Part shown: positions 8,400 to 50,372 of the stretch, one piece after another
Position numbering within the stretch: the stretch's first letter is position 1
How the letters are laid out: each line of letters opens with the position of its first letter
Source: Dehalococcoidia bacterium
GTDB taxonomy: Bacteria; Chloroflexota; Dehalococcoidia; CAUJGQ01
Length of the DNA: 64,000 nucleotides
Assembly: GCA_035310145.1 (NCBI GenBank)
Contig: DATGEL010000022.1
Location: 1 to 64,000, forward strand
Direction: 5' to 3'
The notes under the pieces: generated by a model
Told to the model about the DNA's origin: nothing
What the model saw: the letters and a program-made list of their open reading frames with translations, nothing else
Database searches by the model: none
Program-made: the position numbers and the translations under genes

Positions 8400-9626
8400 A
8401 TGGTTGTGGAGGAACCGAAAGAGTTCCCTGTGCAAGCTTTGAATCTCGGCGCGCCCGGCAAAGACTGCGGCACTGCCATCGCCCGCGTGGCCTCGTTGAC
8501 CGCCGTGACGAATGCGTTCGCCTGGCTCGACCGGCACCCTGCCGCCTGCGAGCGCGAGACCGCGGCGATCGCCGAGATCCCGGCGCCGACCTTCGGCGAA
8601 GAGCGCCGCGCCGCCTATGTCGCACAGCGGCTGCAGGAGCTGGGCGCCGAGCAGGTGCACGGTTTCGGGCTGGGCAACGTCGCCGGCCGCTTCGGCCCGA
8701 CCACGGGCGAGGGCATCGCGCTGCTTGCGCACCTCGATACAGTCTTCACCGAAGCCGTAGATCACCGCGTCTCGCGGCGCGGCGGCCGCCTCTACGGCCC
8801 CGGCGTGGGAGACAATTCGGCCGGCGTGGCGGGCACGATCACGGCGCTGGCGGCGGCGCAGGCCGCGGGGCTGCGCTTCGAGCGTCCGGTGTGGGTTGTG
8901 GGTAACGTCGGCGAAGAGGGCCTGGGCGACCTGCGCGGCTCGCGCGACACGATGGAGCACTTCGCGGGCCGGCTGAGCGCCGTACTCGCGATCGAGGGCA
9001 CGATGCTTGGCCGCCTGGGGCATGTGGCGGTGGGCAGCCGCCGGCTGAAGGTCCGCTTCCACGCTGAGGGCGGGCATAGCTGGCTCGACTTCGGCAAGGC
9101 CAGCGCCGTGCACGCGGCGGTGCAGGCGGCGGCCGAGATCGCGCGGCTGAAGGTGCCAACCGAGCCGCGCACCACCTTCAACATCGGCCGCATCAGCGGC
9201 GGCGACGGCGTCAACGTGGTGGCGCCATCGGCCGAGCTGCTGCTGGACATGCGCTCGGTCGGCGTGGCGGCGCTTGCCGATCTCTCGGATCGGGTCGAAG
9301 AGATCCTGCGGCGCGCGGCTGGTCCCGAGATCACAGTCGAGATCGAAGAGGTGGGCCAGCGGCCGGCGGGTTCGATCCCGCGCACACATCCGTTGATGCA
9401 GCTCTGCGCCGCCGTGCTTCTGCGCGTGGGGGTGCGCCCGGAACCCACTGCCGGCAGCACCGACGCCAACATTCCGCTCAGCCAGGGTATACCGGCGCTG
9501 GCGCTGGGCGTCACGCGCGGCGCCGGCATCCACAGCGCCAGCGAGTGGATCGAGATCGCGCCGATGCGGCAGGGCGTGCAGCAGCTCGTGCTCGTCTGCG
9601 CGGCGCTGGCGGGAGTGGCCGAATGA
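8400..9626 (+). CDS. M20-family metallopeptidase (ArgE/DapE/CPG2-like)
   Basis: 408 residues. The dizinc site is visible: HLDT (H111, D113), GDNSAG with bridging D138, the EEG pair E172-E173, and a distal His in GAGIHSASEW near the C-terminus. The lid or dimerisation domain lies in the middle (about 205-310). Family members hydrolyse peptides, acyl-amino acids or carbamates. The ATG at 8400 has no convincing ribosome binding site, so the true N-terminus may be a little downstream; homology-like sequence starts near residue 25. Its stop overlaps the next ATG in ATGA, so it is coupled to the enoyl-CoA hydratase. Confidence 0.88.
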   Translation: MVVEEPKEFPVQALNLGAPGKDCGTAIARVASLTAVTNAFAWLDRHPAACERETAAIAEIPAPTFGEERRAAYVAQRLQELGAEQVHGFGLGNVAGRFGPTTGEGIALLAHLDTVFTEAVDHRVSRRGGRLYGPGVGDNSAGVAGTITALAAAQAAGLRFERPVWVVGNVGEEGLGDLRGSRDTMEHFAGRLSAVLAIEGTMLGRLGHVAVGSRRLKVRFHAEGGHSWLDFGKASAVHAAVQAAAEIARLKVPTEPRTTFNIGRISGGDGVNVVAPSAELLLDMRSVGVAALADLSDRVEEILRRAAGPEITVEIEEVGQRPAGSIPRTHPLMQLCAAVLLRVGVRPEPTAGSTDANIPLSQGIPALALGVTRGAGIHSASEWIEIAPMRQGVQQLVLVCAALAGVAE

Positions 9627-38105: not shown

Positions 38106-39644
38106 ATGCGCATCGGTCCATGCAAACCCTTCGGCCGGCCGCTCCTGCTGGTCGCGTTCGCCTGCCTGCTGGCCGCGTGCAGCAGCAGCAACAACAACGG
38201 CAATAAGTCGAATGCGGCGAACAACGCCGCCAACGCGACGAAGCCCGTCGCCAGCTCGATCGCGCCGGCGCCGGGCGCCGCGGGCACCGCCCAGCCGGGT
38301 TCGCCGACGTCGGCGGCCACTCGCGCCGCGGCCACAGCGGCGCCTGCGAGCACCTCGGCGGCCGGCTCGCCGGCCGCTGGCGCTGCGCCTGGCGATCCTG
38401 GCGCGGCGGCGCTCGCGGCAGCGGGGGGCAAGAAGATCGGCGGCTCGGTGAACGTGCTCGGCACCTGGGGGGGCAGCGAGCAGGACAGCTTCCTCGCCAT
38501 GGTGAAGCCGTTCGAGGACGCCACCGGCGTCAAGGTGAATTACGAGGGCACGCGCGACCTCAACGCCGTGCTGACGACGCGCGTGCAGGGCGGCAACCCG
38601 CCCGAGCTGGCGGGCCTGCCCGGCCCCGGCCAGATGGCGCAGTTCGCGCAGCAGGGCAAGCTCGTCGACCTCGACAGCGTGCTCGATATGAGTGCGATGA
38701 AGCAGCAGTACCCCGAGTCGTGGCTGCAACTGGCGCAGGTCGGCGGCAAGCAGGTCGGCATCTTCATTAAGGTCGCGCTCAAGGGGCCGATCTGGTACGA
38801 CCCCAAGACGCTGAGCAAGTTCTCTACCGGGCAGACGCCGAAGACCTGGGACGAGCTGCTGGCGCTGACCGACAAGATCGCGCAGAGCGGCACCACGCCC
38901 TGGTGCATCGGCATGGAGTCCGGCGCGGCCAGCGGCTGGCCCGGCACCGACTGGCTGGAAGACATCGTGCTGCGCCAGGCGGGACCCGATGTCTACGACC
39001 AGTGGTACCAGGGCAAGATCAAATGGACCTCGGACCAGATCAAGCAGGCCTGGCAGAGCTGGGGCAAGATCGTCGCCAATTCGAAGGACGTTTTCGGCGG
39101 CTCGAACACGGTGCTCTCCACCAACTTCGGCGACGCCGGCACGCCGATGTTCTCCAACCCGCCGAAGTGTTACCTGATGCACCAGGGCAGCTTCATCACC
39201 GACTTCTTCGTTAAGAACACGCCGGGCCTGAAGCCGATCACCGACTTCAACTTCTTCATGTTTCCCGACATCGACCCCAAGTACACCGGCTCGGCCGAGG
39301 TCGCCGGCGACCTGTTCGGCATGTTCAAGGACACGCCGCAGGCACGGGCGCTGATCAAATACCTGGCCACACCGGAGGCGCAGGCGATCTGGGTGAAGCG
39401 CGGCGGCGCCCTTTCACCGAATAAGCTCGTCTCGCCCGAGGTGTATCCCGATGAGCTGGCGAAGGAGCAGGCGCAGATCATCACCACGACCAAGACGGCG
39501 AAGTTCGACGCTTCCGACCTGATGCCTGACGCCATGAACACCGCCTTCTACAAAGCGGTGCTGGACTACATCCAGAACCCCGGCAACCTGGACAGCATCC
39601 TCGCCAATCTCGACAAGGTGCAGGCCGACGCCTACAAGCAGTGA
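38106..39644 (+). CDS. Sugar-type ABC transporter substrate-binding lipoprotein
   Basis: 512 residues. Signal peptide with lipobox LLAAC, followed by an Asn/Ser/Ala/Thr/Pro-rich linker to about residue 113. The family 1 solute-binding domain starts at GGSVNVLGTWGGSEQDSFLAMVKPFEDATGVKVNYEGT and has PPELAGLPGPGQMAQFAQQGKLVDLD, GPIWYDPKTL and the C-terminal AIWVKRGGALSPNK segment typical of CUT1 carbohydrate receptors. Two matching permeases follow. The sugar (probably an oligosaccharide or glucoside) cannot be deduced. GGGAGG precedes the ATG. Confidence 0.92.
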   Translation: MRIGPCKPFGRPLLLVAFACLLAACSSSNNNGNKSNAANNAANATKPVASSIAPAPGAAGTAQPGSPTSAATRAAATAAPASTSAAGSPAAGAAPGDPGAAALAAAGGKKIGGSVNVLGTWGGSEQDSFLAMVKPFEDATGVKVNYEGTRDLNAVLTTRVQGGNPPELAGLPGPGQMAQFAQQGKLVDLDSVLDMSAMKQQYPESWLQLAQVGGKQVGIFIKVALKGPIWYDPKTLSKFSTGQTPKTWDELLALTDKIAQSGTTPWCIGMESGAASGWPGTDWLEDIVLRQAGPDVYDQWYQGKIKWTSDQIKQAWQSWGKIVANSKDVFGGSNTVLSTNFGDAGTPMFSNPPKCYLMHQGSFITDFFVKNTPGLKPITDFNFFMFPDIDPKYTGSAEVAGDLFGMFKDTPQARALIKYLATPEAQAIWVKRGGALSPNKLVSPEVYPDELAKEQAQIITTTKTAKFDASDLMPDAMNTAFYKAVLDYIQNPGNLDSILANLDKVQADAYKQ

Positions 39645-39668
39645 CAGGAGGCCATCGGGCGCAGGGCC

Positions 39669-39714
39669 AGGGCGTGGGATGGAGGCGTCCACTCCGCCCT
39701 CCACCCCACGCCCT
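39669..39714 (+). terminator. Intercistronic stem-loop between receptor and permease genes
   Basis: AGGGCGTGGGATGGAGG and CCTCCACCCCACGCCCT pair over 17 bp with one mismatch around a 12-base loop. It starts 24 bp after the receptor stop and ends 5 bp before the permease ATG. In such operons a hairpin here usually protects the receptor message or partially terminates transcription, so that receptor outnumbers channel. Confidence 0.75.
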
Positions 39715-39719
39715 TCACC

Positions 39720-40697
39720 ATGAGCGATCGCATCGTCCTCGCGCTCGTCGTCGTGCTGGGGGTGCCGGCGGCCCTGGTCGGTTACGTCGCCCTGATCGAA
39801 TGGCTGCTGCGCGGCGCCGCCAACCGGTGGAAGGCGCGGCTGCGTCCCTGGCTCTGGCTGCTGCCGGCACTCGTCTTCCTGGGCGTCTACCTCGTCTATC
39901 CTTCGCTGAAGACGATCTATCTCAGCTTTTTCAACGCCGACTCGCGGCGGTTCGTGGGGCTGGATAACTACCATTACATCTTCACCGACCGTACGAACCT
40001 GATCTCGCTGCGCAACAATGTGCTCTGGGTAATCTTCTTCACCGGCGCCGTCGTCGCCTTCGGGTTGCTGATCGCCGTGCTCACCGACCGCGTGCGCTAC
40101 GAGTCGATCGCGCGCGGCGTCGTCTTCCTGCCCATGGCCGTCTCCTTCGTGGCGGCGGGCGTGATCTGGCGGTTCATGTACGACTACCGGCCGCCCGGCC
40201 TGCCCCAAACCGGCACGGTGAACGCGGCGCTGATCCTCGTGGTTCCGGGCTACACGCCGCACGCCTGGCTGATCGAACGGCCGATCAACACCTTCGCGAT
40301 CATCGGCGCCTCGGTCTGGATGTGGACCGGCTTCGCGGCGGTGATCCTCGCGGCCGCGCTCAAGGGCGTGCCTGCCGACGTGCTGGAGGCGGCGCGCGTG
40401 GACGGCGCGGGCGAGTGGCAGGTCTTCTGGCGGATCATCTTCCCGCTGCTGGGCACGACGATCGCCGTCGTCACCACCACGGTCGTGATCATCGCGCTGA
40501 AGGCATTCGACATCGTCTACGTGATGACCAACGGCAACTACGACACGGATGTGATCGCCAACCGCATGTACAAAGAGATGTTTAACTTCCGCAACTTCGG
40601 CCGCGCGAGCACCATCGCCGTCATCCTGCTCTGCGCGATCGTGCCGGTAATGCTGTACAACCTGCGCAGTTTCCGCACGCAGGAGGCGACCCGCTGA
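39720..40697 (+). CDS. CUT1 sugar ABC transporter permease (MalF-type)
   Basis: 325 residues with about seven hydrophobic segments; the first, VLALVVVLGVPAALVGYVALIEWLL, precedes a second at LWLLPALVFLGVYLVYPSL. The EAA loop is visible as EAARVDGAGEWQVFWRIIFPLL (about 223-244). SFFNADSRRFVGLDNYHYIF is the usual first periplasmic stretch. The ATG at 39720 directly follows the stem-loop and lacks a ribosome binding site, so translation may depend on hairpin opening or an unusual initiation. Its stop overlaps the next start (TGATG). Confidence 0.93.
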   Translation: MSDRIVLALVVVLGVPAALVGYVALIEWLLRGAANRWKARLRPWLWLLPALVFLGVYLVYPSLKTIYLSFFNADSRRFVGLDNYHYIFTDRTNLISLRNNVLWVIFFTGAVVAFGLLIAVLTDRVRYESIARGVVFLPMAVSFVAAGVIWRFMYDYRPPGLPQTGTVNAALILVVPGYTPHAWLIERPINTFAIIGASVWMWTGFAAVILAAALKGVPADVLEAARVDGAGEWQVFWRIIFPLLGTTIAVVTTTVVIIALKAFDIVYVMTNGNYDTDVIANRMYKEMFNFRNFGRASTIAVILLCAIVPVMLYNLRSFRTQEATR

Positions 40698-41587
40698 TGC
40701 AAACCGCCGCCCTGCGCAAGAGCGTCGCCGTTTCGTTTCCCGCGCGGCTGGGCCAGGCGCTACGGCGCGGGCCGCTGCACATCGTGATTATCGCCATCTG
40801 CCTGCTGTGGCTGGTGCCGGCCGCGGGGCTGCTGGTCTCCTCCTTCCGGCCGCCGGCGCTGGTCTCGCGCACGGGCTGGTGGACGGCCCTGCAGCCGCCG
40901 CTGCACTTCACGCTGGACAATTACCAAAAGGTGCTGACGACGAACCACATGGGGCAGAGCTTCGTCAACAGCCTCTTCATCGCGATTCCGGCCACCGTCA
41001 TCCCCATCCTGGTCGCGGCCTACGCGGCCTACGCCTTCGCCTGGATGGAGTTTCCGGGGCGCGACTGGCTTTTCCTCGTCGTCGTCGGCCTGCTGGTGGT
41101 GCCGCCGCAGATGACGCTGATCCCGGTGCTGCGCCTGTACACGCAGTTGCACCTCGCCGGCACGTTTCCCGGCCTCTGGCTGGCGCACACGGGCTACGGC
41201 CTGCCCTTCGCCGTCTACCTGCTGCGCAACTTCTTCGGCTCGCTGCCGCGCGAGATGATGGAGTCGGCCTACGTCGACGGCGCCGGGCCGTTTACCGTCT
41301 TCTTCCGCCTTGTGCTGCCCACCTCGGTGCCGGCCCTGGCTTCGCTGGCGATCTTCCAATTCATGTGGGTTTGGAACGACCTGCTGATCGCGCTCGTCTA
41401 TCTCGGCGGCGCGCCGGACGTGGCGCCGATGCCGGTGACGATCAGCAACCTCGTCAACTCGCTGGGCCAGAACTGGCAACTGCTTACTGCCGCGGCCTTC
41501 ATCTCGATGGCGCTGCCGCTCAGCGTCTTCTTCGCCCTGCAGCGCTACTTCGTCTCCGGCATTCTCACCGGCGCGGTGAAGGGGTAG
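40697..41587 (+). CDS. CUT1 sugar ABC transporter permease (MalG-type)
   Basis: 296 residues and six hydrophobic helices. The MalG-type EAA motif is MESAYVDGAGPFTVFFRLVLPTSVPALA (about 190-217). TLDNYQKVL and MGQSFVNSLFIAIPATVIPILVAAYAAYAFA are family hallmarks. It overlaps the upstream permease gene. No ATP-binding subunit follows, so the importer must use an ATPase encoded elsewhere, as is common for CUT1 systems with a shared MsmK-like ATPase. Confidence 0.94.
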   Translation: MQTAALRKSVAVSFPARLGQALRRGPLHIVIIAICLLWLVPAAGLLVSSFRPPALVSRTGWWTALQPPLHFTLDNYQKVLTTNHMGQSFVNSLFIAIPATVIPILVAAYAAYAFAWMEFPGRDWLFLVVVGLLVVPPQMTLIPVLRLYTQLHLAGTFPGLWLAHTGYGLPFAVYLLRNFFGSLPREMMESAYVDGAGPFTVFFRLVLPTSVPALASLAIFQFMWVWNDLLIALVYLGGAPDVAPMPVTISNLVNSLGQNWQLLTAAAFISMALPLSVFFALQRYFVSGILTGAVKG

Positions 41588-41688: not shown

Positions 41689-42738
41689 ATGAACAGCGCT
41701 CAGGCGATCAGCGCGGCGGCACGTGCCGAACCAACAGCAGCGCTCTCGACCGGGGAACTGACAGAACTGCTGTCGGCTGTGCGCCAGCTTCAGGCCGAGC
41801 ACGCCGGCGCGCTGCAGGTGCTGCGCCGGCTCGAACAGCGATTCAGCGGCAGCGGCCTCGGCGATCGGCACGCGGCTGAGGCCGCGGCGGAAGGCGCCGC
41901 AGGCGCCCTCTGGCATGATGCGCTCGATCGCCCCGCGCGCGTGCATCGTCTGCAGGTGCAGGTGCTCGGCCCGTTCCGTGCCTGGCTGGACGGGCGCCCC
42001 ATCGACAACTGGCAGAACCGACGGGCACGGACGCTGCTCAAGTGCCTCGCGGTCAACGAGCGGCAGCGTGCGCCGCGGGAGCAACTGATCGAGGCGCTCT
42101 GGCCCGGCGCGGATCCGCGCGCCGGCGCTAACTCGCTGCGAGTGACCATCCACGCGCTGCGCCGAATCCTGGCGGAGGCGGCCGGCGAGGCGGGCGCCGA
42201 CGATTTGCTCCTCTGCGAGGGAGACGGCTACGGCTTCGGCCCGAGCCTCGCCGTGGACGTCGATGTGATCAGCTTCGAACGGCTCTGGCAGCGAGGCCGC
42301 CGGCTCGAACAGGAGGAGGCGCCCGAGCGGGCGCTGGCCGCCTTCGAAGCCGCGGAGGCGCTCTACCAGGGTGACTTTCTCCAGGACGATCCCTACGACG
42401 AGTGGACGGTCCTGCGGCGCGAAGCGCTGAGGGACTGCTACCTGGCCTTGCTGGCGCGGCTTGGCCGGCGCTCCCTCGAACGGGGCGATTATGAAGGCTG
42501 CATTCAGCGCTGTCAGCGGCTTCTCCGCCAGGACCCCTGCCGCGAAGACATCTACCAATGGCTGATGCGCTGCCACGCCGCGCTTGGCCAGCCGGGGCGT
42601 GTGCGCCGCTGGTTTGACGTCTGCACCGCCGTGTTGCGCCAGGAACTTGACCTGCCGCCGGGACCGGAGACGGTTGCGCTCTTGCACGCACTGCGGGCGA
42701 GTCCGGCGACAATTAATTCCGCACTAACGCCCGATTAA
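41689..42738 (+). CDS. SARP/BTAD-family transcriptional regulator
   Basis: 349 residues. An N-terminal extension with a short coiled-coil (TGELTELLSAVRQLQAEHAGALQVLRRLEQ, about 21-50) precedes an OmpR-type winged helix at about 87-165 (VQVLGPFRAWLDG, NRRARTLLKCLAVN, REQLIEALWP, NSLRVTIHALRRIL). A bacterial transcriptional activator domain follows (about 190-340; DVDVISFERLWQRGRRLE, YEGCIQRCQRLLRQDPCREDIYQWLMRCHAALGQ). Proteins of this architecture commonly switch on secondary-metabolite clusters. It lies directly upstream of the RiPP-like locus and is its likely activator (inference). Confidence 0.9.
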   Translation: MNSAQAISAAARAEPTAALSTGELTELLSAVRQLQAEHAGALQVLRRLEQRFSGSGLGDRHAAEAAAEGAAGALWHDALDRPARVHRLQVQVLGPFRAWLDGRPIDNWQNRRARTLLKCLAVNERQRAPREQLIEALWPGADPRAGANSLRVTIHALRRILAEAAGEAGADDLLLCEGDGYGFGPSLAVDVDVISFERLWQRGRRLEQEEAPERALAAFEAAEALYQGDFLQDDPYDEWTVLRREALRDCYLALLARLGRRSLERGDYEGCIQRCQRLLRQDPCREDIYQWLMRCHAALGQPGRVRRWFDVCTAVLRQELDLPPGPETVALLHALRASPATINSALTPD

Positions 42739-42890
42739 CGTGCCAGTAATCACCCTTCTCTAGTGTGAACAGCGAAATACTCTGCGTCGCCGAGGCGAGT
42801 GGCGTCCTCTCGACCGAATTCGCGTCGCCGCTTCGCAGTCGCCGATTCGTGGCGTCTCCGTGGCTCAGTGACCAGCAAAAGGGGCACCGG

Positions 42891-43103
42891 GTGACCGACT
42901 ACTCGTCGTTCATCCTCAAGATTCGCATCGATGAGCGGCGCAATGTGCTGGTTGGTTCGATCGAGCACGCTGCGACGAAAGAGTCGCTGCGATTCCGCGA
43001 GATGGGCCGGATGATGCAGTTCATCTTTGCGCATCTCCCGCCGGCCTCGAACCCGATGATCCCCACGGCTGCGGCCGGCCCGGCCGACGACGGCCAGAGG
43101 TGA
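42891..43103 (+). CDS. Small conserved-looking protein of the peptide-like locus
   Basis: 70 residues from a GTG at 42891; the frame is open back to a GTG at 42765. It has a compact beta-rich core, SSFILKIRIDERRNVLVGSIEHAATKE, then SLRFREMGRMMQFIFAHL, and a Pro/Ala tail. The strand-turn-strand plus F-x-x-x-x-x-M-x-x-F-I-x-x-H-L pattern looks like a small domain I have seen beside BTAD regulators, but I cannot name it. The position right after the SARP gene suggests a role in the same system; a regulatory partner or accessory peptide is possible. Confidence 0.55.
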   Translation: MTDYSSFILKIRIDERRNVLVGSIEHAATKESLRFREMGRMMQFIFAHLPPASNPMIPTAAAGPADDGQR

Positions 43104-43200
43104 GTTCGCGGGGCGCGCCGGTCGCCTCGACCTCGCCTCTTCAGCCGCACCTTCCTACCCGGCAACGCCCAGCCGGGCCCGCCGTTGCAACCGCGCAAAC

Positions 43201-43339
43201 GGAGGTGTCGCCATGTGACGGGATGCCGAGCGGCCGCCAGGAGCGCGGCCGCTTCCACCGCCCACTAACCGGCGCGATGGCAAGAGCCCAAGGCAAACAG
43301 GAGGGACATCCGTTATGGCGACCCCGACCGAGTCCTTGA
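43201..43339 (+). promoter_or_regulatory. Leader with start-stop codon pair and short uORF before the first small peptide
   Basis: GGAGG at 43201-43205 precedes ATG-TGA (43213-43218), a start immediately followed by a stop. Five bases on, another ATG (43223) opens a 38-codon frame that ends at 43339, 25 bp inside the 96-aa peptide gene. A 9-bp perfect stem AGCGGCCGC/GCGGCCGCT (43229-43253) lies in it. This could tune ribosome access to the peptide gene (inference). Confidence 0.35.
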
Positions 43340-43605
43340 TCCAGAAGTTGGAAAGCTTCGCCGGCACGCTCTCCGATCCCGAGCGAGAGGTGCTCGGCGA
43401 GCTCCTGCTGAACAGCGTCGACAGCAGCAAGACCCCGCAGGACGTTGCCGGCTATCTCCTCGCCTCCGGTCCGTCGTCCCTGCTTGGCGGCGCGATTCTC
43501 GGGGCCCAGGCGAGCAACAACACGTTCACGCGGCTGCACCTGCAGACGGCGCCGAACAACATCGTTCTGGTCGCGGCCGGCCCCAGGGCGCGCGGCCAGC
43601 TCTAA
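43315..43605 (+). CDS. Putative RiPP precursor peptide P1
   Basis: 96 residues, no Cys, not exported by a classical signal. The N-terminal part is helical and acidic (KLESFAGTLSDPEREVLGELL, with K11 to S34). Eleven of 24 residues there are identical to the corresponding segment (K20-S43) of the 99-aa protein at 49216-49515. The C-terminal part is quite different: a Gly/Ala/Ser stretch, then NNTFTRLHLQTAPNNIVLVAAGP. Shared leader plus variable core is the layout of RiPP precursors. AGGAGGG lies ten bases upstream. It precedes the radical SAM operon, separated by a long stem-loop. Function is inferred from context only. Confidence 0.65.
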   Translation: MATPTESLIQKLESFAGTLSDPEREVLGELLLNSVDSSKTPQDVAGYLLASGPSSLLGGAILGAQASNNTFTRLHLQTAPNNIVLVAAGPRARGQL

Positions 43606-43608
43606 CAG

Positions 43609-43680
43609 ATGGTTTCAAAACCGGCGTTCAGGTGCGATCGCACACCTACAAGCGGGAACTCGCGCCGGTTATGAAACCAT
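43609..43680 (+). terminator. Long stem-loop directly after the P1 gene
   Basis: ATGGTTTCAAAACCGGCG (43609-43626) and CGCCGGTTATGAAACCAT (43663-43680) form an 18-bp stem with one mismatch. Inside the loop lies the perfect 12-base palindrome GTGCGATCGCAC. It begins 4 bases after the P1 stop. In RiPP operons a hairpin here commonly causes partial termination, so precursor outnumbers enzymes. There is no T-run. Confidence 0.75.
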
Positions 43681-43694
43681 GTCTAAGCCCCGCT

Positions 43695-43799
43695 CCCGGC
43701 AATCCCTCCGTCCAGGCGGTCCCGGCAGCAGCGCCCCACGCCTCACTCGGCGCGGAGCGCCGCGACGCCGCCGCGCGGCCGGGCCGGGGGATTGCCGGG
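43695..43799 (+). repeat. Second inverted repeat in the P1-radical SAM gap
   Basis: CCCGGCAATCCC (43695-43706) and GGGATTGCCGGG (43788-43799) are perfect 12-bp reverse complements, 81 bases apart. The loop is very GC-rich. Together with the preceding hairpin nearly the whole 244-bp gap between P1 and the first radical SAM gene is structured. Confidence 0.6.
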
Positions 43800-43849
43800 G
43801 ACGCTCGGGCATCGCTGAGTGTGTCTAGCCGGCCATTGGAGGTAGTCGC

Positions 43850-45319
43850 ATGGTAGCGCTGCAGCCCGCACGCAATTCGTCGAGCGCGGCAGCGGAATTG
43901 AACCTCGGCGTGCTGCTGCAGCAGCATCCGGAGCTGCAGATCGAGCAGGACGAGTACAACATCAATGTCACGGCGAACTTCGGCCGGACGCTCACGGCGG
44001 CGGAGGTCTTCGACCGTTACGCGGCCCATCCCGGCCGCGGTATGCCGGCGCATCTCTACTTTCATGTGCCCCTCTGCTCGTATATCTGCCACTTCTGCAA
44101 CTATGTGAAGCGGCGCCTGCCCAACGACGGCAAAGCCGATGCAACCCTGGATGAGTGGGTGACGCTGCTGACCGCCGAGTCGCAGGCCTATCTCGATCGG
44201 GTCGGCTGGCTGCGAGAGGCGCGGATCGAGTCGTTCTTCATCGGCGGCGGCACCGCGGCGCTGCTGCGGCCGCGGCAGCTCGAACGGCTGATCGCGCACG
44301 TGCGCAAGAACTACGCGCTCAGCCCGGACTGCGAGCTGACGCTGGAAGGCAACCCCGACAACTTCCAGTGCGACTACATCCGCGCCGCGCAGGCGATCGG
44401 CTTCAACCGCTTCAGCGTGGGTGTGCAGTCGTTCCAGGACGAGGTCACGGGCTTCACCGGCCGCGGCCACGACGGCAGAGCCTCGCTTGCCGCGATCGAC
44501 CACCTGCTGGAATCGCACCGCCCCTTCAACGTCGACATTATGTTCGGACTGCCGTTTCAGACCGTCGAAAGCGTGGAGAGAGACATCCGCACACTCGTCA
44601 CCCGGCGCGTGCCGACGATCACGATCTACCGCCTGCGCAACGCCGAGCGGCACAAGATGGGGATCGGCAACCGCGCCCTCTGGAACGTGCCCGCCGTGCG
44701 CGACCAGCTGCACGCCGAGCATCGCTTCCCCAGCATCACGACCACGTACGCGATGCGCGAGGCGGCGGTGCGCACCCTCCTGGAGCACGGCTACACGCCC
44801 AGCCCTTGCGGCTGGTGGAACGCGCCCGGCACCTATCCGGAGGGCAACATCCCGCGTGTCTCCCGCAACAAGTGGCAGCGCTACGACACGATGATCGCCT
44901 TCGGCCCCGGCGCCTACGGCTGGCTGACCGGCGAGACGGCCGAGGTCGTACAAACCCACAACGAGACGGACATCGCCGCCTACGCGAAACGCGTCAAGGC
45001 GGGCGACAGCCGCCCGATCGCCTTCGGCCGGCTGCTCAGCGGTCACCAGGCGGCCGGCTCGGCGCTCGGCTTCGCCTTCAAGGCGAACCAGCCGATCCGC
45101 CCGGAGCGCTTCCGCCGCCAGTATGGCGTCGAGATCCTCGAACAGGAACCGTACCGCGGCGTGTTCCGGGAGCTGGTGGCGCGCGGCCTGCTCGAGTTTG
45201 TTGAGGGCGGCGCCGCGCTAAAGCCGACGCTGAACGGCGAGGCGCTGCATGAAGAGATCATCAGCGTCTACCTGCAGGGCCGCATCGGGCAGTTCGACGA
45301 GGCCGTTTGCCGGCGTTAG
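43850..45319 (+). CDS. HemN-like radical SAM protein (class C methyltransferase-type candidate)
   Basis: 489 residues. The cluster-binding motif is Cys76-x3-Cys80-x2-Cys83 (HVPLCSYICHFCNYVKR), preceded by YFHVP as in HemN. FFIGGGTAALL (129-139) is the GGGT SAM motif, followed by CELTLEGNPDNF and FNRFSVGVQSFQDEV, also HemN-like. A HemN C-terminal domain is recognisable near RELVARGLLEF. HemN relatives in natural-product loci are often class C radical SAM methyltransferases or cyclases, while true HemN acts in haem synthesis. GGAGG eight bases upstream. First gene of a compact operon. Confidence 0.85.
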   Translation: MVALQPARNSSSAAAELNLGVLLQQHPELQIEQDEYNINVTANFGRTLTAAEVFDRYAAHPGRGMPAHLYFHVPLCSYICHFCNYVKRRLPNDGKADATLDEWVTLLTAESQAYLDRVGWLREARIESFFIGGGTAALLRPRQLERLIAHVRKNYALSPDCELTLEGNPDNFQCDYIRAAQAIGFNRFSVGVQSFQDEVTGFTGRGHDGRASLAAIDHLLESHRPFNVDIMFGLPFQTVESVERDIRTLVTRRVPTITIYRLRNAERHKMGIGNRALWNVPAVRDQLHAEHRFPSITTTYAMREAAVRTLLEHGYTPSPCGWWNAPGTYPEGNIPRVSRNKWQRYDTMIAFGPGAYGWLTGETAEVVQTHNETDIAAYAKRVKAGDSRPIAFGRLLSGHQAAGSALGFAFKANQPIRPERFRRQYGVEILEQEPYRGVFRELVARGLLEFVEGGAALKPTLNGEALHEEIISVYLQGRIGQFDEAVCRR

Positions 45320-45321
45320 GG

Positions 45322-46122
45322 ATGAGCGAGGGCTGCATGCCAGGCATCGAGCTGCGGTCGGGCGGTGAACCGTTCCGCTGCGTGTACGATCCGCCCGCGA
45401 CGCTGGGGAGCCGCGTCTGCTTAATCGTCCAGTCGGGCCAGGCCGGGCCGATCGACGAGCCGACCACAGAGAACCGGCTCTACGAGCGGCTGGGACTGCG
45501 TCTGTCACGTCACGGCGCCGGCACGATCCGCTTCGAGATGCAGCACCGCGCGGATCGCCACCTCGCGGCCTCGCCCGCCGAGTTCGCAGAGCGGGTACGG
45601 CGTTTGGAGAGTGTGCTGGCGGCGCCTGATCTGCAGCCCCTGCTGCCGCGCACAGTGCTGCTGGGCGCCTCGCTGGGCGCCGACGTCGTGCTGGCGGCGC
45701 TGTCTTCGAAGCGAGCGGCAAATATCAGGCTTGCGGGGCTGGTGTTGATCGGCTGCGTCATCGAGGCGCCGGTCCGCCTGCGGGCGCGGGTCGGCGCCGC
45801 CGCATTCGTCTACGGCGCAGGCGATTATGTCGCGTACGTAGATGCAGCCGGCAACCAGACCGCGCCCCGGCGCCCCGCGGACTACGCTCCGGCCACGCTC
45901 CGACGCCTCGCCGGCGTCGATGCCGCGGCGAAGCTCCACATCCTCGACGGTCTAGGCCACACGCTGGCGCCCTGCGTCGAGATGCAGCGGGCGCCGGACC
46001 CTGTCCCGCTGCTCACCCGACTCGTGCTGCGGACGTGCGCGGGGCACGCATCGCCAGACGGCGATCATCGCGTTGGATGGAACGGAGAAACGCCGAATTC
46101 GGCTCTGGAGCGCAGCGCATGA
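45322..46122 (+). CDS. Alpha/beta-hydrolase-like protein of the peptide-like locus
   Basis: 266 residues. The nucleophile elbow GASLGAD puts Ser117 in the catalytic position, with His213 in LDGLGHTLAP as a plausible partner and acidic residues between. The N-terminal strand-loop is unusual (SRVCLIVQSGQAGPIDEPTTENRLYERLGLRL) and the lid region short. It starts two bases after the radical SAM stop and overlaps the next gene by ATGA, so it is firmly in the operon. A peptidase, esterase or thioesterase role on the modified peptide is possible. An alternative start is the ATG at 45337. Confidence 0.75.
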   Translation: MSEGCMPGIELRSGGEPFRCVYDPPATLGSRVCLIVQSGQAGPIDEPTTENRLYERLGLRLSRHGAGTIRFEMQHRADRHLAASPAEFAERVRRLESVLAAPDLQPLLPRTVLLGASLGADVVLAALSSKRAANIRLAGLVLIGCVIEAPVRLRARVGAAAFVYGAGDYVAYVDAAGNQTAPRRPADYAPATLRRLAGVDAAAKLHILDGLGHTLAPCVEMQRAPDPVPLLTRLVLRTCAGHASPDGDHRVGWNGETPNSALERSA

Positions 46123-46886
46123 CCACGACCGCCGCCGCCCGCTTCGACAAGATCGCCGCCAACTTTGCCACCAGCGAGGTGCACAGCAGCAGCCCGACCA
46201 TGCGGCGGCTGCACGAGTTGATCGCCCTGCCCGAAAGCGCCGCCGTCTGCGACGTCGCCTGCGGCGCGGGTCACCTGGCGCTGTCGTTCTCCGGCCGCGC
46301 CGCGCGCATCTGCGGCGTCGACCCGGCGCCGGCAATGCTGGACGCCTTCGCCACGCTGGCGAGCGAGCGCGGTGTCGCCGTCGAATGCATCCAGGCGTAT
46401 GCAGAACGGATTCCATTGCCAGACGCTTCCTTCGACCTGGTCGTGACGCGCCTCGCCGCACACCATTTCGCCCGCATCGAAGCGGCCGTGGCCGAGATGG
46501 CGCGGCTCACTCGGCCGGGCGGCAGCGTGGCCGTGATCGACCTCGAAGGGGACGCGGAGCCGGCGATCGACGCGTTCAATCACCGCTTGGAGCTGCTGCA
46601 CGACCCGACCCACGTGCGCAGCTATCCCGCTGCGCGCTGGCGGGAGCTGCTCGAGGACGCCGGGCTGCGCGTGGAGGCGCTCGAGCGCCGGCAGCGCGAG
46701 AGTCCCGCCGGCGTGCCGAGCAAGCGCTGGTGCGAGATCGCCGGTTCCGGCGCTGCGGCCGAAGCCGCGATCCGCGATCTGCTGGCGGCCGCGGACCCGG
46801 CCACACGTGAGGCGCTGGGCATCGAAGCCGATGGGGAAGAATTCCGCATTCCCGTCCGCACCGTGCTGCTCGTGGCGGGAAAGTAG
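46119..46886 (+). CDS. Class I SAM-dependent methyltransferase of the peptide-like locus
   Basis: 255 residues. Motif I is VCDVACGAGHLALSFSG (43-59), acidic strand-end Asp in CGVDPAPAML, motif II FDLVVTRLAAHHF and motif III MARLTRPGGSVAVIDLEGD, i.e. UbiE/MenG-like (Methyltransf_11). The C-terminal part (HDPTHVRSYPAARWRELLEDAGLRVEALERRQR) is typical of small-molecule methyltransferases. It overlaps the hydrolase gene by four bases. In this context it could methylate a peptide side chain or terminus, or a small precursor. Confidence 0.88.
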   Translation: MTTTAAARFDKIAANFATSEVHSSSPTMRRLHELIALPESAAVCDVACGAGHLALSFSGRAARICGVDPAPAMLDAFATLASERGVAVECIQAYAERIPLPDASFDLVVTRLAAHHFARIEAAVAEMARLTRPGGSVAVIDLEGDAEPAIDAFNHRLELLHDPTHVRSYPAARWRELLEDAGLRVEALERRQRESPAGVPSKRWCEIAGSGAAAEAAIRDLLAAADPATREALGIEADGEEFRIPVRTVLLVAGK

Positions 46887-46902
46887 GCAGGAAGGCGTCG
46901 AG

Positions 46903-47802
46903 ATGCCGGTGATCGAGATCCACTCGCCCCAGCCGCTGCCCCCGGCGGGCCTGCTGGATGCCCTCTGCGCCGAGGTTACGCGCACATTGGGCATACCGGC
47001 CGGCTTCGCCTGGGCCGTCTGGAACGGGCATCCCGCCGGCAGCTTCGCGCGGCCGGAGTGGGCCGCCGGCTCGCAGGCTCCCGTGGTCTTCGTGCGCTGC
47101 AAAAACCGCTACACGCAGGCGCAGGTCGGCGCCGTGATGCGCACGATCCAGCGCGTGCTCAGTGGCGGCCTGCACTGTTCAGCCGACGAGATTTACATCG
47201 CGGTCCAGCGCGTCGTGCCGCAAGAGCTGCTCGTGCGCGGCGCGATCTGGGAAGGCGATGAGGCGCCGGCAAGTTCAGACGCGGCCGCCGCCGGCGAACC
47301 TCCGGGAGTGATCATGCTGCGGCCGATCGGCTTCGTCTCCTCGCCGCGGCGCGACCTGAGCGATGACAACTGGGGCGGCGTGGTCGCCATGATCACGCTC
47401 GAGGCCGCCCGCTTCGGCGCCGACGCGCTCGCGGAGCTGGCGGACTTCTCCCACCTGGAGATCGTGTTCTTCATGCACCGCGTGCCCGAGGACGAGATCG
47501 AGAGCGGGAAGCGCCACCCACGCGGCCGCGCCGACTGGCCGGAGGCAGGCATCTTCGCGCAGCGCGCCAAGGGCCGCCCGAACCGTATCGGCGTCTCGCG
47601 TTGCCGTCTGCTGAGCGTGGAAGAGCGAATGCTGCGCGTACAGGGGCTCGACGCGGTGGACGGCACGCCGGTGCTGGATATCAAGCCGTACATGGCCGAA
47701 TTCGGGCCGTTGGGCGAGGTGCATCAGCCGGCCTGGGCCACGGAGCTGATGCAGGACTACTACGACACGCACCCGGCCCCCGCCGGCAGGCACGAGGAGT
47801 AA
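46903..47802 (+). CDS. Tautomerase-TrmO (UPF0066) fusion protein
   Basis: 299 residues in two parts. Residues 1-115 resemble the tautomerase superfamily: the chain starts MPVIEIHS, leaving Pro at the N-terminus after Met removal, and continues LLDALCAEVTRTLGIPAGF. Residues 136-275 match TrmO/TsaA, a beta-barrel SAM-dependent methyltransferase that acts on t6A37 of tRNA: LRPIGFVSSPRRDL, DFSHLEIVFFMHRV, GIFAQRAKGRPNRIGVSRC, VQGLDAVDGTPVLDIKPY. The Pro/Ala-rich linker lies at about 118-135. AGGAAGG seven bases upstream. I know of no characterised fusion of this kind. Being inside this operon suggests it acts on the pathway product rather than tRNA. Confidence 0.85.
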   Translation: MPVIEIHSPQPLPPAGLLDALCAEVTRTLGIPAGFAWAVWNGHPAGSFARPEWAAGSQAPVVFVRCKNRYTQAQVGAVMRTIQRVLSGGLHCSADEIYIAVQRVVPQELLVRGAIWEGDEAPASSDAAAAGEPPGVIMLRPIGFVSSPRRDLSDDNWGGVVAMITLEAARFGADALAELADFSHLEIVFFMHRVPEDEIESGKRHPRGRADWPEAGIFAQRAKGRPNRIGVSRCRLLSVEERMLRVQGLDAVDGTPVLDIKPYMAEFGPLGEVHQPAWATELMQDYYDTHPAPAGRHEE

Positions 47803-47806
47803 TGCG

Positions 47807-49096
47807 ATGTTCATTCCCTTCCAGTACAACGCCGGGCAGATCCTGGCCGTGCTGCCGCGGGGCGAGGTGCAGTTCCTGCGGGTCGAGGCGCGGCCGCTGA
47901 TTGACGCCGTCAACGCGGGCAACGTGCCGCCGCTGCAAGCGGACTTTTCGGCGTTCCTGGTGCGCGACCCGCTGGTGGAGATGAACGACTTCCACCTGAG
48001 CGCCCCGGCGAACGTCTTTCTGGAGATCACCAACCGCTGCAACCTGCGCTGCAAACACTGTTACGCCTGGTCCGGCGTGGCCCGCGCCAACGAGATGCCG
48101 ACGGAGCAGATCCTGCGCGTGCTCGACGACCTGGACGAAATGGGTACGCTCGGCATCTTCCTGACGGGCGGCGAGGTCTTCTCCCACCGGGACGCCGTGC
48201 AGATCATCCAGCACGCCAAGACGAAGGCGTTCGCGGTCGACATCTTCACCAATGGCCTGCTGATCACCGAGGAGAAGCTGGCGCAACTGCCGCGCGGCAC
48301 CTCGTTCGCGATCAGCTTTGACACCGCCGATCCCGAGCGCACCGTGCGCGGCGGCATGGACTTCCCGAAGCTGCGCCGCTGCTTCGAATGGATGGCGAAG
48401 TACGGGCACGTCGTACGCACCGCCATCTCCGTGCACCGCAACAACATCCACGACGCGCTCGACATCTACCGCTGGTGCCTGGAGAACGGCTACCCGCGGC
48501 CGCAGTGGCTGGAGACACACCCGCTCGGCCGGGCGTTGCTGCACCCCGATATTTTGCTGCAGCCCGAGCAGGTCGATGAAGTGTTCGCGGTCTACAAGCA
48601 GTGCATGGAGCTCTACGCCACGCCCGCCGACGCGCAGGCGGTGATCGGGCCGTCTGACCGCAAGGGCATGCTCAACGTCGATACGGTGCGCTTCACCGTG
48701 GAGCTGGAGCGCGCCACGGGACAGGAGAAGTGCGCCCGCTCCGTGGCCTATATCAACGCCGCGGGCGAGGTGTACCCCTGCACCAACTGCCAGAGCGCCG
48801 TCATGTACCGCGGCGGCAACCTGCGAGAGCGCTCCTTCAAGGAGATCTGGGACACGGGCTTCCGCGACTTCCGCACGATCCACTTCAGCGACTTCAAGGA
48901 CTGCAACACCTGCCCGGTCGCCGCGGCCGACGTCTGGTGCCAGTTCCGCTGCCCGCCGGTGGCGATGAACCTGACGCGCAACCCGCTGGGCTGCGGCGCG
49001 ACGGAGTACATGAAGCTGTTCATGCTCAAGGCGCACCGCTACTGGCAGGAGTTCCAGCGGTCGGGGAAGAAGCTCGCGCTGAACGCGCCCGCGTGA
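47807..49096 (+). CDS. Radical SAM/SPASM peptide maturase-like enzyme
   Basis: 429 residues. The SAM-cluster motif is Cys78-x3-Cys82-x2-Cys85 in EITNRCNLRCKHCYAW, with GGE (FLTGGEVF, about 118-125). The C-terminal SPASM region has Cys309, Cys325, Cys328, Cys366, Cys369, Cys378, Cys382 and Cys396, enough for two auxiliary iron-sulfur clusters. The first 65 residues before the barrel could be a leader-recognition (RRE/PqqD-like) element, which I cannot confirm. SPASM enzymes typically install thioether, C-C or C-O crosslinks in peptides. It starts four bases after the fusion gene and ends before a strong terminator. Confidence 0.9.
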   Translation: MFIPFQYNAGQILAVLPRGEVQFLRVEARPLIDAVNAGNVPPLQADFSAFLVRDPLVEMNDFHLSAPANVFLEITNRCNLRCKHCYAWSGVARANEMPTEQILRVLDDLDEMGTLGIFLTGGEVFSHRDAVQIIQHAKTKAFAVDIFTNGLLITEEKLAQLPRGTSFAISFDTADPERTVRGGMDFPKLRRCFEWMAKYGHVVRTAISVHRNNIHDALDIYRWCLENGYPRPQWLETHPLGRALLHPDILLQPEQVDEVFAVYKQCMELYATPADAQAVIGPSDRKGMLNVDTVRFTVELERATGQEKCARSVAYINAAGEVYPCTNCQSAVMYRGGNLRERSFKEIWDTGFRDFRTIHFSDFKDCNTCPVAAADVWCQFRCPPVAMNLTRNPLGCGATEYMKLFMLKAHRYWQEFQRSGKKLALNAPA

Positions 49097-49111
49097 CCGG
49101 CTGGACAGACC

Positions 49112-49153
49112 AAAGCCGCCCCTTGCGCGAGGGCTCGCGCAAGGGGCGGCTTT
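49112..49153 (+). terminator. Terminator of the radical SAM operon
   Basis: AAAGCCGCCCCTTGCGCGAG (49112-49131) and its exact reverse complement (49134-49153) form a 20-bp perfect stem with a minimal loop. It lies 16 bp after the SPASM gene stop and ends in CTTTCC. Because A-run and T-run flank the stem, it may also stop the opposite-strand unit. Confidence 0.85.
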
Positions 49154-49215
49154 CCTCGTACCGCGTTGTCTGGTACCCGCTTGGGCGTGTGCCGCGGTGG
49201 GCGACGGCCGGAACC

Positions 49216-49515
49216 TCAGCGAATTTCGAACGAGCGGGCGCCGGCCTCCAGCGCGCTGCCGCCGCGCAATTCTATGGCGAAGCCACCGAGCGAACCCGGC
49301 GTCAGAAAATTCGTGCGGATTGCCGAAGCCACGACCGCTTCGGCGAAGACCCCGCCGGCGTAGCCCTGCGTCTCCCCCTGTTCGAAGCTGCGCTCCAGCA
49401 GCATGCCGAGCACCACCTGCTCGCCCGGTGTCAGGGCCTGGCAGAAGCCGCGCAGCTTCTCCTTCAGTGTGACGACATCTTCCGCCGTTGCCGGGGACGC
49501 CTGCTCGTTGCTCAC
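49216..49515 (-). CDS. Putative RiPP precursor peptide P2 (P1 paralogue)
   Basis: 99 residues from a GTG at 49515 with GGGAG seven bases upstream. The segment EKLRGFCQALTPGEQVVLG (about 19-37) aligns with P1 (11 of 24 identical over K20-S43). The C-terminus differs: FAEAVVASAIRTNFLTPGSLGG and a Gly/Ala-rich end. One Cys (C25), in the leader-like part. The start overlaps the DUF6065-like stop in GTGA, so both are translated together. It faces the SPASM gene across the terminator. Precursor status is inferred from similarity to P1 and location. Confidence 0.62.
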   Translation of the reverse strand: MSNEQASPATAEDVVTLKEKLRGFCQALTPGEQVVLGMLLERSFEQGETQGYAGGVFAEAVVASAIRTNFLTPGSLGGFAIELRGGSALEAGARSFEIR

Positions 49516-50372
49516 CCTGCTTCTCCCTTGTTGATCGGTTCGCCCGGACAAGTGTCTTGCCGCGGGCCGTCGCTCTGCGGCGGAACCGGCTCCGCCGAGA
49601 TCGCCTGCAATGAATGCGCCGGGCAGCCGGCGCGTTGCCGGCGGTGCACCTCGCTGCGATACCAGCCCGGCCGGGCGCCGGGCGTGTTGCGCGGCAGAAT
49701 CGATCGCGTATATGCCGACCAGTCCGCCTCGCTCAACGCCGCAAACCCTTCGCACACAGACCCGCTGCCGAGGTTCTCTTCCGCGTACGCCGCCTTCGGC
49801 AGCGGCTGCAGTTGATACAGGGGTTGTGCCCGGCGAAAGCAGATCGGGGTGTCGGTTTTGCGCAGGCGGAGGTTCGAGGCGACCGGCCCAAACCACCAGT
49901 CTGTCTCGATAATCCCCTCAAGGACTTCGAAGCCCGGATCCTGCGGCAGGTTCGCCGGCCGGCGAACGAGCAGCGACCAGCCCGGCCGCGTCTTCGCCAG
50001 CACGCCGGTGGAAACCATGACGATGCCCGGTTCGCCGCGGGGCGCGTGCATGAAGTAGACCGGGCGTGGCAGCACATCGGCCACCGGCGCGTTCAAGTTC
50101 CACAGCCCGGTGAATCCCGGCAGATCGGCCGCCTCCAGCAGTTGCCAGTCGCGGGCGCCCGCGCCGCGCCAGCGGACAGTCGTGCCGTCCCACAGCAGAT
50201 CGAAATCGATCGGCGGAAAGACGTGCCAGCCGAACGAGGAGGCGGCGCGAAACGGCTCGCAGTAGTGATAGGCGCGGGCGGGCATCGAGCCGCCGAGTCC
50301 CGCGTCGGCGCGCACCGGCTTCGGCGCCGCGGGAAATAGCTTGTACAGCGTAACCAGCGGCTCAACGGCCAT
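49512..50372 (-). CDS. DUF6065-like protein coupled to P2
   Basis: 286 residues from the ATG at 50372. The pattern FPAAPKPVRADA, ARAYHYCEPFRAASSFGWHVFPPIDFDLLWDG, PGFTGLWNLNAP, TRPGWSLLVRRPANLPQDPGFEVLEGIIETDWWFGPV and NLRLRKTDTPICF matches the family I know as DUF6065, of unknown function. No catalytic motif is recognisable. The C-terminal 70 residues are Arg/Pro-rich. It overlaps P2 (GTGA), suggesting a dedicated partner. A TTG further upstream (50429) is an alternative start. Confidence 0.78.
   Translation of the reverse strand: MAVEPLVTLYKLFPAAPKPVRADAGLGGSMPARAYHYCEPFRAASSFGWHVFPPIDFDLLWDGTTVRWRGAGARDWQLLEAADLPGFTGLWNLNAPVADVLPRPVYFMHAPRGEPGIVMVSTGVLAKTRPGWSLLVRRPANLPQDPGFEVLEGIIETDWWFGPVASNLRLRKTDTPICFRRAQPLYQLQPLPKAAYAEENLGSGSVCEGFAALSEADWSAYTRSILPRNTPGARPGWYRSEVHRRQRAGCPAHSLQAISAEPVPPQSDGPRQDTCPGEPINKGEAG

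Follow-up and report, generated by a model that had tools for sequence, protein, structure and literature searches.

A candidate radical SAM RiPP-type gene cluster in a Dehalococcoidia genome, with related cassettes in Streptomyces and Bacillota

Relation of the locus to described peptide-maturing systems

The pathways for pyrroloquinoline quinone (PQQ) and mycofactocin, in which a short precursor peptide is encoded beside a radical S-adenosylmethionine (SAM) maturase of the SPASM type and later enzymes are of the small-molecule type, are among the described systems that most merit comparison with the locus analysed here. This locus occupies positions 41689-50372 of a 64,000-nucleotide stretch (hereafter, the window) of contig DATGEL010000022.1, belonging to a 5.3-Mb metagenome-assembled genome of the phylum Chloroflexota. 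It encodes a 96-residue peptide, P1, followed by a cassette of five enzyme genes, and is probably (at a probability of roughly 0.78) a radical SAM gene cluster of the ribosomally synthesised and post-translationally modified peptide (RiPP) type with P1 as its precursor. The initial annotation had already read the locus as RiPP-like, and this reading is now supported by a conserved gene neighbourhood, by variable C-termini of related peptides and by a core motif common to P1 and the peptides of other cassettes.

The locus shares with PQQ and mycofactocin the arrangement just named; it differs from them in its core motif, in that none of their named partner genes was seen, and in possessing an additional HemN-type radical SAM enzyme, a tautomerase and a TrmO domain. 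The best NCBIfam models for its SPASM enzyme (WgkB, StsB, MftC and PqqE-type) all describe peptide maturases and all remain far under their cut-offs, while the nearest solved structures are those of SkfB and PqqE. The PQQ/mycofactocin pathway proper was rejected on MftC and PqqE scores of ~84-104 bits (cut-offs 265 and 381), and a streptide/tryglysin type on a WgkB score of 105 bits versus a cut-off of 650, together with a core that lacks Trp. Thioether RiPPs, i.e., sactipeptides and ranthipeptides, are excluded since P1 and all cassette precursors contain no Cys; the single Cys of P2, a second small peptide of the locus, lies in its leader. An earlier statement that no lanthipeptide cyclase, LanM or YcaO is present was borne out, neither LanB, LanM or LanKC nor YcaO being found among the locus genes and the neighbours scanned.

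Comparable neighbourhood logic was applied in a survey of radical SAM RiPPs that includes the TvgB-type (PMC9062424). The examples in the available part of that survey resemble the present cassette in their SPASM enzyme, short peptide with a conserved motif and exporter; the six enzyme activities counted here exceed those of most of them, and the motif [RT]IH..VL..G is not met in that part. A literature search of partial coverage on HemN-like, TrmO, tautomerase and DUF6065 proteins in connection with RiPPs found no description of this system, and no curated family was matched above cut-off, in agreement, within that coverage, with the designation of the locus as undescribed.

The conserved cassette and the core motif of P1

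A first genome-wide scan, for which the single SPASM sequence (47807..49096, plus strand; PF04055 and PF13186, in no curated family) served as query, returned no orthologues. When an alignment including distant rhizobial SPASM enzymes was used against ~85,000 species genomes, nine near orthologues were retrieved; G718, which belongs to the same class as Peribacillus, supplied a tenth. BLASTP searches with the window proteins located the enzyme cassette in ten other genomes, i.e., six of Streptomyces and four of Bacillota (Paludifilum, Peribacillus, Bacillus sp. SD075 and G718), so that, of the genes grouped as one cluster in the initial annotation, the enzyme genes do co-occur in two further phyla, in ten genomes altogether. 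Identities are 54-62% for the SPASM enzyme, 59-65% for the HemN-type enzyme, 31-36% for the hydrolase and 46-64% for the methyltransferase. The tautomerase-TrmO protein is fused in Streptomyces (48-53% identity), while its two parts are encoded by adjacent genes in the four Bacillota (L045, L051, L052 and L130), which indicates that the two partners fused in the window serve one pathway. The gene set and the enzyme order are constant across the cassettes, except for the position of the SPASM and precursor genes.

The cassette is rare, occurring (seed genomes counted) in 2 of 331 sampled genomes of the class of Peribacillus and in 1 of 375 sampled from the class of Streptomyces. Its only carrier among 400 sampled Chloroflexota genomes is the source genome itself, and among these 400 and 60 near relatives no SPASM orthologue other than that of the window was found. 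A scan of viral sequences returned remote SPASM matches only. Accessory genes vary by lineage: a major facilitator superfamily (MFS) exporter in Bacillota, an MFS exporter of another type and an FAD aromatic-ring hydroxylase in Streptomyces, an ATP-grasp L-amino-acid ligase adjoining the cassette in Paludifilum and G718, and a SARP regulator in the window. The rhizobial SPASM relatives (28-33% identity) are accompanied by B12-radical SAM, PqqD-like and decarboxylase or racemase genes and seem to belong to a different pathway. In plasmids of Mesorhizobium (L008) and Sinorhizobium (L009) such a distant SPASM gene is accompanied by a second radical SAM gene and a decarboxylase or racemase gene; the second radical SAM enzyme of L009 is B12-binding and a PqqD-like protein is present there, while L008 carries a BTAD regulator. 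These clusters apparently represent another uncharacterised pathway.

P1 (43315..43605, plus strand) has a GC content at third codon positions of 0.90 and is preceded by a good AGGAGG site. Its leader comprises approximately residues 1-48, and its core lies within the last ~29 residues (NNTFTRLHLQTAPNNIVLVAAGPRARGQL). Each of the ten other cassettes has a gene for a 31-56-residue peptide beside the SPASM gene, such that a precursor gene conserved with the enzymes, as expected of a RiPP, is present in all 11 cassettes. The Bacillota precursors lie just upstream of the SPASM gene and end in a terminator-like hairpin, and those of Streptomyces are placed between the SPASM and HemN-type genes; neither the Bacillota nor the Streptomyces peptides possess a P1-type leader. 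The cassette peptides, namely MEFKDLTRIHLDKPKEGIVLAANGAGQAIKKPQQ in Peribacillus and Bacillus, MKTRKMSRIHMKKGKEGVVQAVVGAAHTVRNK in Paludifilum, MKDKKLATIHIKKSQQGLVLSAVGAGHSVKK in G718 and one beginning MPEEKKVIRIHLEPGQEGVTLSAVGAASATAP in the six Streptomyces, follow the motif [RT]IH[LIM]x6[ILV][VT][LQ]xxxG, or, in the wider form that also takes in P1, [RT][IL]H[LIM]-x6-[ILV][VT][LQ]xxxG. The C-terminus of P1, TRLHLQTAPNNIVLVAAG, matches the motif residues with identical spacing, which makes P1 the probable precursor.

This match was assessed with an ungapped matrix and shuffled sequences in place of a precursor profile hidden Markov model (HMM). Compared with the four cassette peptide types, the P1 tail scored better than 1999 of 2000 of its own shuffles, and a matrix built from the four non-window types placed the P1 segment among the ten best non-training segments of 3.75 million. 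Across 3.77 million six-frame residues, matches to the motif expression were confined to the cassette peptides and P1, although its residue classes were written with knowledge of P1.

Several observations weigh against P1 as the substrate of a peptide-maturing cassette. When the open reading frames (ORFs) of the window were searched with a profile HMM built from the precursors of the cassettes, P1 received no significant score; as this profile is too weak for P1, the link between P1 and the core rests on a short motif and on position. The Arg of the motif is replaced by Thr in G718, and no transporter or ligase of the cassette type adjoins the cassette in the window. Moreover, TrmO, UbiE-type and tautomerase domains ordinarily work on RNA or small molecules, TrmO being the tRNA m6t6A methyltransferase whose substrate is t6A37 of tRNA.

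Enzymes, gene organisation and the leader family

The five enzyme genes lie on the plus strand, with junctions of +2, -4, +16 and +4 bp on recalculation, in keeping with the overlaps and gaps of 2-16 bp given in the initial annotation; all of the genes that it named, i.e., a SARP gene, two small ORFs, the five-gene operon, and a DUF6065 gene with a second peptide on the opposite strand, were recovered at the positions it gave. The first enzyme (43850..45319; Radical_SAM PF04055, 60 bits) contains a conserved CX3CX2C, has HemN and NocN as its nearest solved structures and HutW as its best NCBIfam model, and is a candidate class C radical methyltransferase on these sequence features. It shares the HemN-like domain and the CX3CX2C motif with the class C enzymes NocN and HutW/ChuW, and differs from them in its HutW score (164 bits, under the 400-bit cut-off) and in being partnered with a peptide instead of heme or the NocN pathway. 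The alpha/beta-hydrolase (45322..46122), which has no Pfam match of its own, retains a Ser-Asp-His motif (GxSLG, Asp, GHTL) in an alignment of seven orthologues, suggesting a candidate peptidase or esterase. It is followed by a UbiE-type SAM methyltransferase (46119..46886; PF08241, 83 bits) and by the tautomerase-TrmO fusion (46903..47802). The TrmO half of the latter was recognised by Pfam (TrmO_N PF01980) and the tautomerase half by structure prediction, the AlphaFold model matching MIF/fused 4-OT/cis-CaaD and TrmO folds in Foldseek. Both domains thus resemble TrmO and the tautomerase superfamily in fold and sequence, and Pro, the N-terminal catalytic residue of tautomerases, occupies position 2 in 10 of 10 sequences; unlike those families, however, the two are fused or adjacent within a peptide cassette, and the score against the TrmO model TIGR00104 is borderline (93.3 bits, cut-off 93.25).

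P1 is separated from the enzyme operon by 244 bp containing a strong inverted repeat (43609..43680, plus strand; RNA folding), which is long, imperfect and without a T run, and which may act as an attenuator between precursor and enzymes or as an RNA stabiliser. RNA folding indicates that a hairpin after the precursor recurs in the other cassettes. Upstream of P1 are the SARP/BTAD regulator (41689..42738, plus strand; BTAD PF03704, 88 bits), a probable local activator, and a 112-residue ORF with a GTG start (42765..43103, plus strand), which has no Pfam or NCBIfam match and no relative in seven other Chloroflexota genomes searched. Further upstream, at 38106-41587, are genes of a binding-protein-dependent ATP-binding cassette (ABC) importer with no evident link to the locus. 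Downstream, a terminator-like hairpin (49112..49153) separates the operon from the convergent minus-strand unit of DUF6065 and P2; its perfect stem was confirmed, at 19 bp as opposed to the 20 bp first given, with a 4-nt loop and a short T run.

The DUF6065 protein (49512..50372, minus strand; PF19541, 64 bits, cut-off 26.6) and P2 (49216..49515, minus strand; 99 residues) are taken to constitute a small operon of their own, because the GTG start of P2 lies inside the last DUF6065 codons with a 4-bp overlap. DUF6065 is absent from 12 other genomes searched, cassette carriers among them, and was consequently rejected as a cassette member; no SARP homologue was found in the Streptomyces or Bacillota cassettes either, and on gene content both are placed outside the conserved cassette. 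A single-sequence fold prediction for DUF6065 was unusable (pLDDT 34). In Rhizobium sp. SRDI969 (L010 8556-10862), DUF6065 is encoded between an MFS transporter, which lies after it, and a small protein before it in which HIANKSPAFDIADFVDDG occurs as three near-repeats, an arrangement suggesting that DUF6065 may modify peptides. An ORF with a Nif11-type-looking leader was also observed beside a methyltransferase gene, ~3 kb from a DUF6065 gene, on pMl1 of Sinorhizobium medicae (L011 5773-6087).

The two small peptides had been regarded as a pair, which holds for their leaders and not for their C-termini. P1 and P2 align over 44 residues of their N-terminal halves (39% identity, E 4e-5) with no match elsewhere, and 1473 of 2000 shuffles scored as well as the P2 tail against the core; the idea that P2 repeats the core was therefore rejected. 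P2 also lacks the invariant His. The leader family, with the pattern L..KL..F...L...E...L.......DVQGY followed by variable tails, occurs in 8 of 400 sampled Chloroflexota genomes, the source genome included. Across these eight genomes a constant leader is thus combined with a variable core, as in RiPP precursors; contrary to the refuting condition first set for them, the small ORFs do have relatives whose C-termini vary, while the N-terminus is shared. Judged from these sequences, the Chloroflexota core appears to carry a leader domain that the phylum places on many other peptides, and P2 with DUF6065 appears to form a second, separate leader-bearing unit; as the leader is so widespread, its presence on P2 alone is no proof of a cassette substrate.

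Other members of the family were noted in passing. The source genome (G000) encodes four more on three other contigs, with unrelated tails (one on C17, two on C13 and one on C77; L033 9054-9386, L034 ~8588-9549 and L035 ~9270-9604), that on C17 having a Tyr-rich tail (TYYQTFLTLNQPGSAYYSYYSAVGQYYNTLGTYY) and being divergent to a cytochrome P450 gene. Genome G137 carries five in tandem at a contig end (L007 54-1822), with differing, mostly basic tails. Members with Trp/Tyr-rich tails occur in two genera (G145, L042 9973-14911; G073, L039 8015-10959) beside a GAF-domain protein and an S8 subtilase, to which the G145 locus adds an ABC exporter with a cyclic-nucleotide domain; these loci possibly represent a separate RiPP or secretion system. 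Such protease and exporter neighbours support a precursor role of the family.

Alternative explanations and the proposed product

That the enzymes act on a non-peptide metabolite, RNA or a porphyrin, with the small ORFs as unrelated neighbours, would accord with the porphyrin, tRNA and quinone substrates of HemN/HutW, TrmO and UbiE relatives; this is very improbable given a motif-bearing peptide gene in every cassette across three phyla and a SPASM enzyme whose relatives are peptide maturases. Only marginally better is the prospect that the family of P1 and P2 comprises small proteins with a secreted or regulatory role in place of precursors: several copies in the source genome have no modification enzymes nearby, yet the constant-leader/variable-tail pattern, the tandem arrays (G137 and G073) and the protease and exporter neighbours all point to precursors. 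It is also unlikely, if less so, that one cassette acts on P1 and P2 alike and that DUF6065 adds a further tailoring step; the common leader type, the 4-bp overlap and the position of P2 ~120 bp from the SPASM gene are offset by its dissimilar tail and by the restriction of DUF6065 to this one among the cassette genomes searched.

The nature of the product is less clear-cut. The SPASM enzyme would act first, modifying the His-containing core, and the HemN-type enzyme would carry out a second radical step, probably C-methylation in view of its nearest solved relatives; completion of the product might then fall to the tautomerase and the remaining two methyltransferases, and its release to the Ser hydrolase. 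A conventional RiPP, i.e., a full modified peptide with cross-links or C-methyl groups that is exported as the C-terminal segment after leader removal, is a real though less than even prospect: a conserved core of ~20 residues exceeds the need of a dipeptide, and related Chloroflexota peptides adjoin an S8 protease and an ABC exporter. The tautomerase, UbiE-type methyltransferase, MFS exporter and L-amino-acid ligase, however, typify small-molecule pathways, and the Bacillota precursors are leaderless. By analogy with PQQ and mycofactocin, excision of a small molecule from the core is slightly favoured over a long modified peptide, on account of the leaderless 31-56-residue precursors, the exporters and, in two genomes, the ligase. 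We tentatively propose that the cassette may make small molecules of a new, peptide-derived class: a short His-containing peptide would be remodelled by two radical SAM enzymes, methylated by a recruited TrmO, tautomerised by a 4-OT-type tautomerase and excised as an amino-acid-like compound, to which some hosts would ligate another amino acid.

Since the same enzymes and peptide motif are found side by side again in relatives from Streptomyces and Bacillus, the cluster, a candidate RiPP-type pathway with P1 as precursor, appears to be a genuine natural-product pathway that is as yet unstudied. Its cassette of six activities spans Chloroflexota, Actinomycetota and Bacillota, yet matches no curated family searched. 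It represents a concrete target, being small, with defined genes and precursor, and with hosts that include named isolates (Streptomyces, Peribacillus and Paludifilum). In one lineage the core carries a phylum-specific leader that the others lack, so that the role of the leader is directly testable, and TrmO and tautomerases, families seldom linked to peptide maturation, would enter RiPP chemistry.

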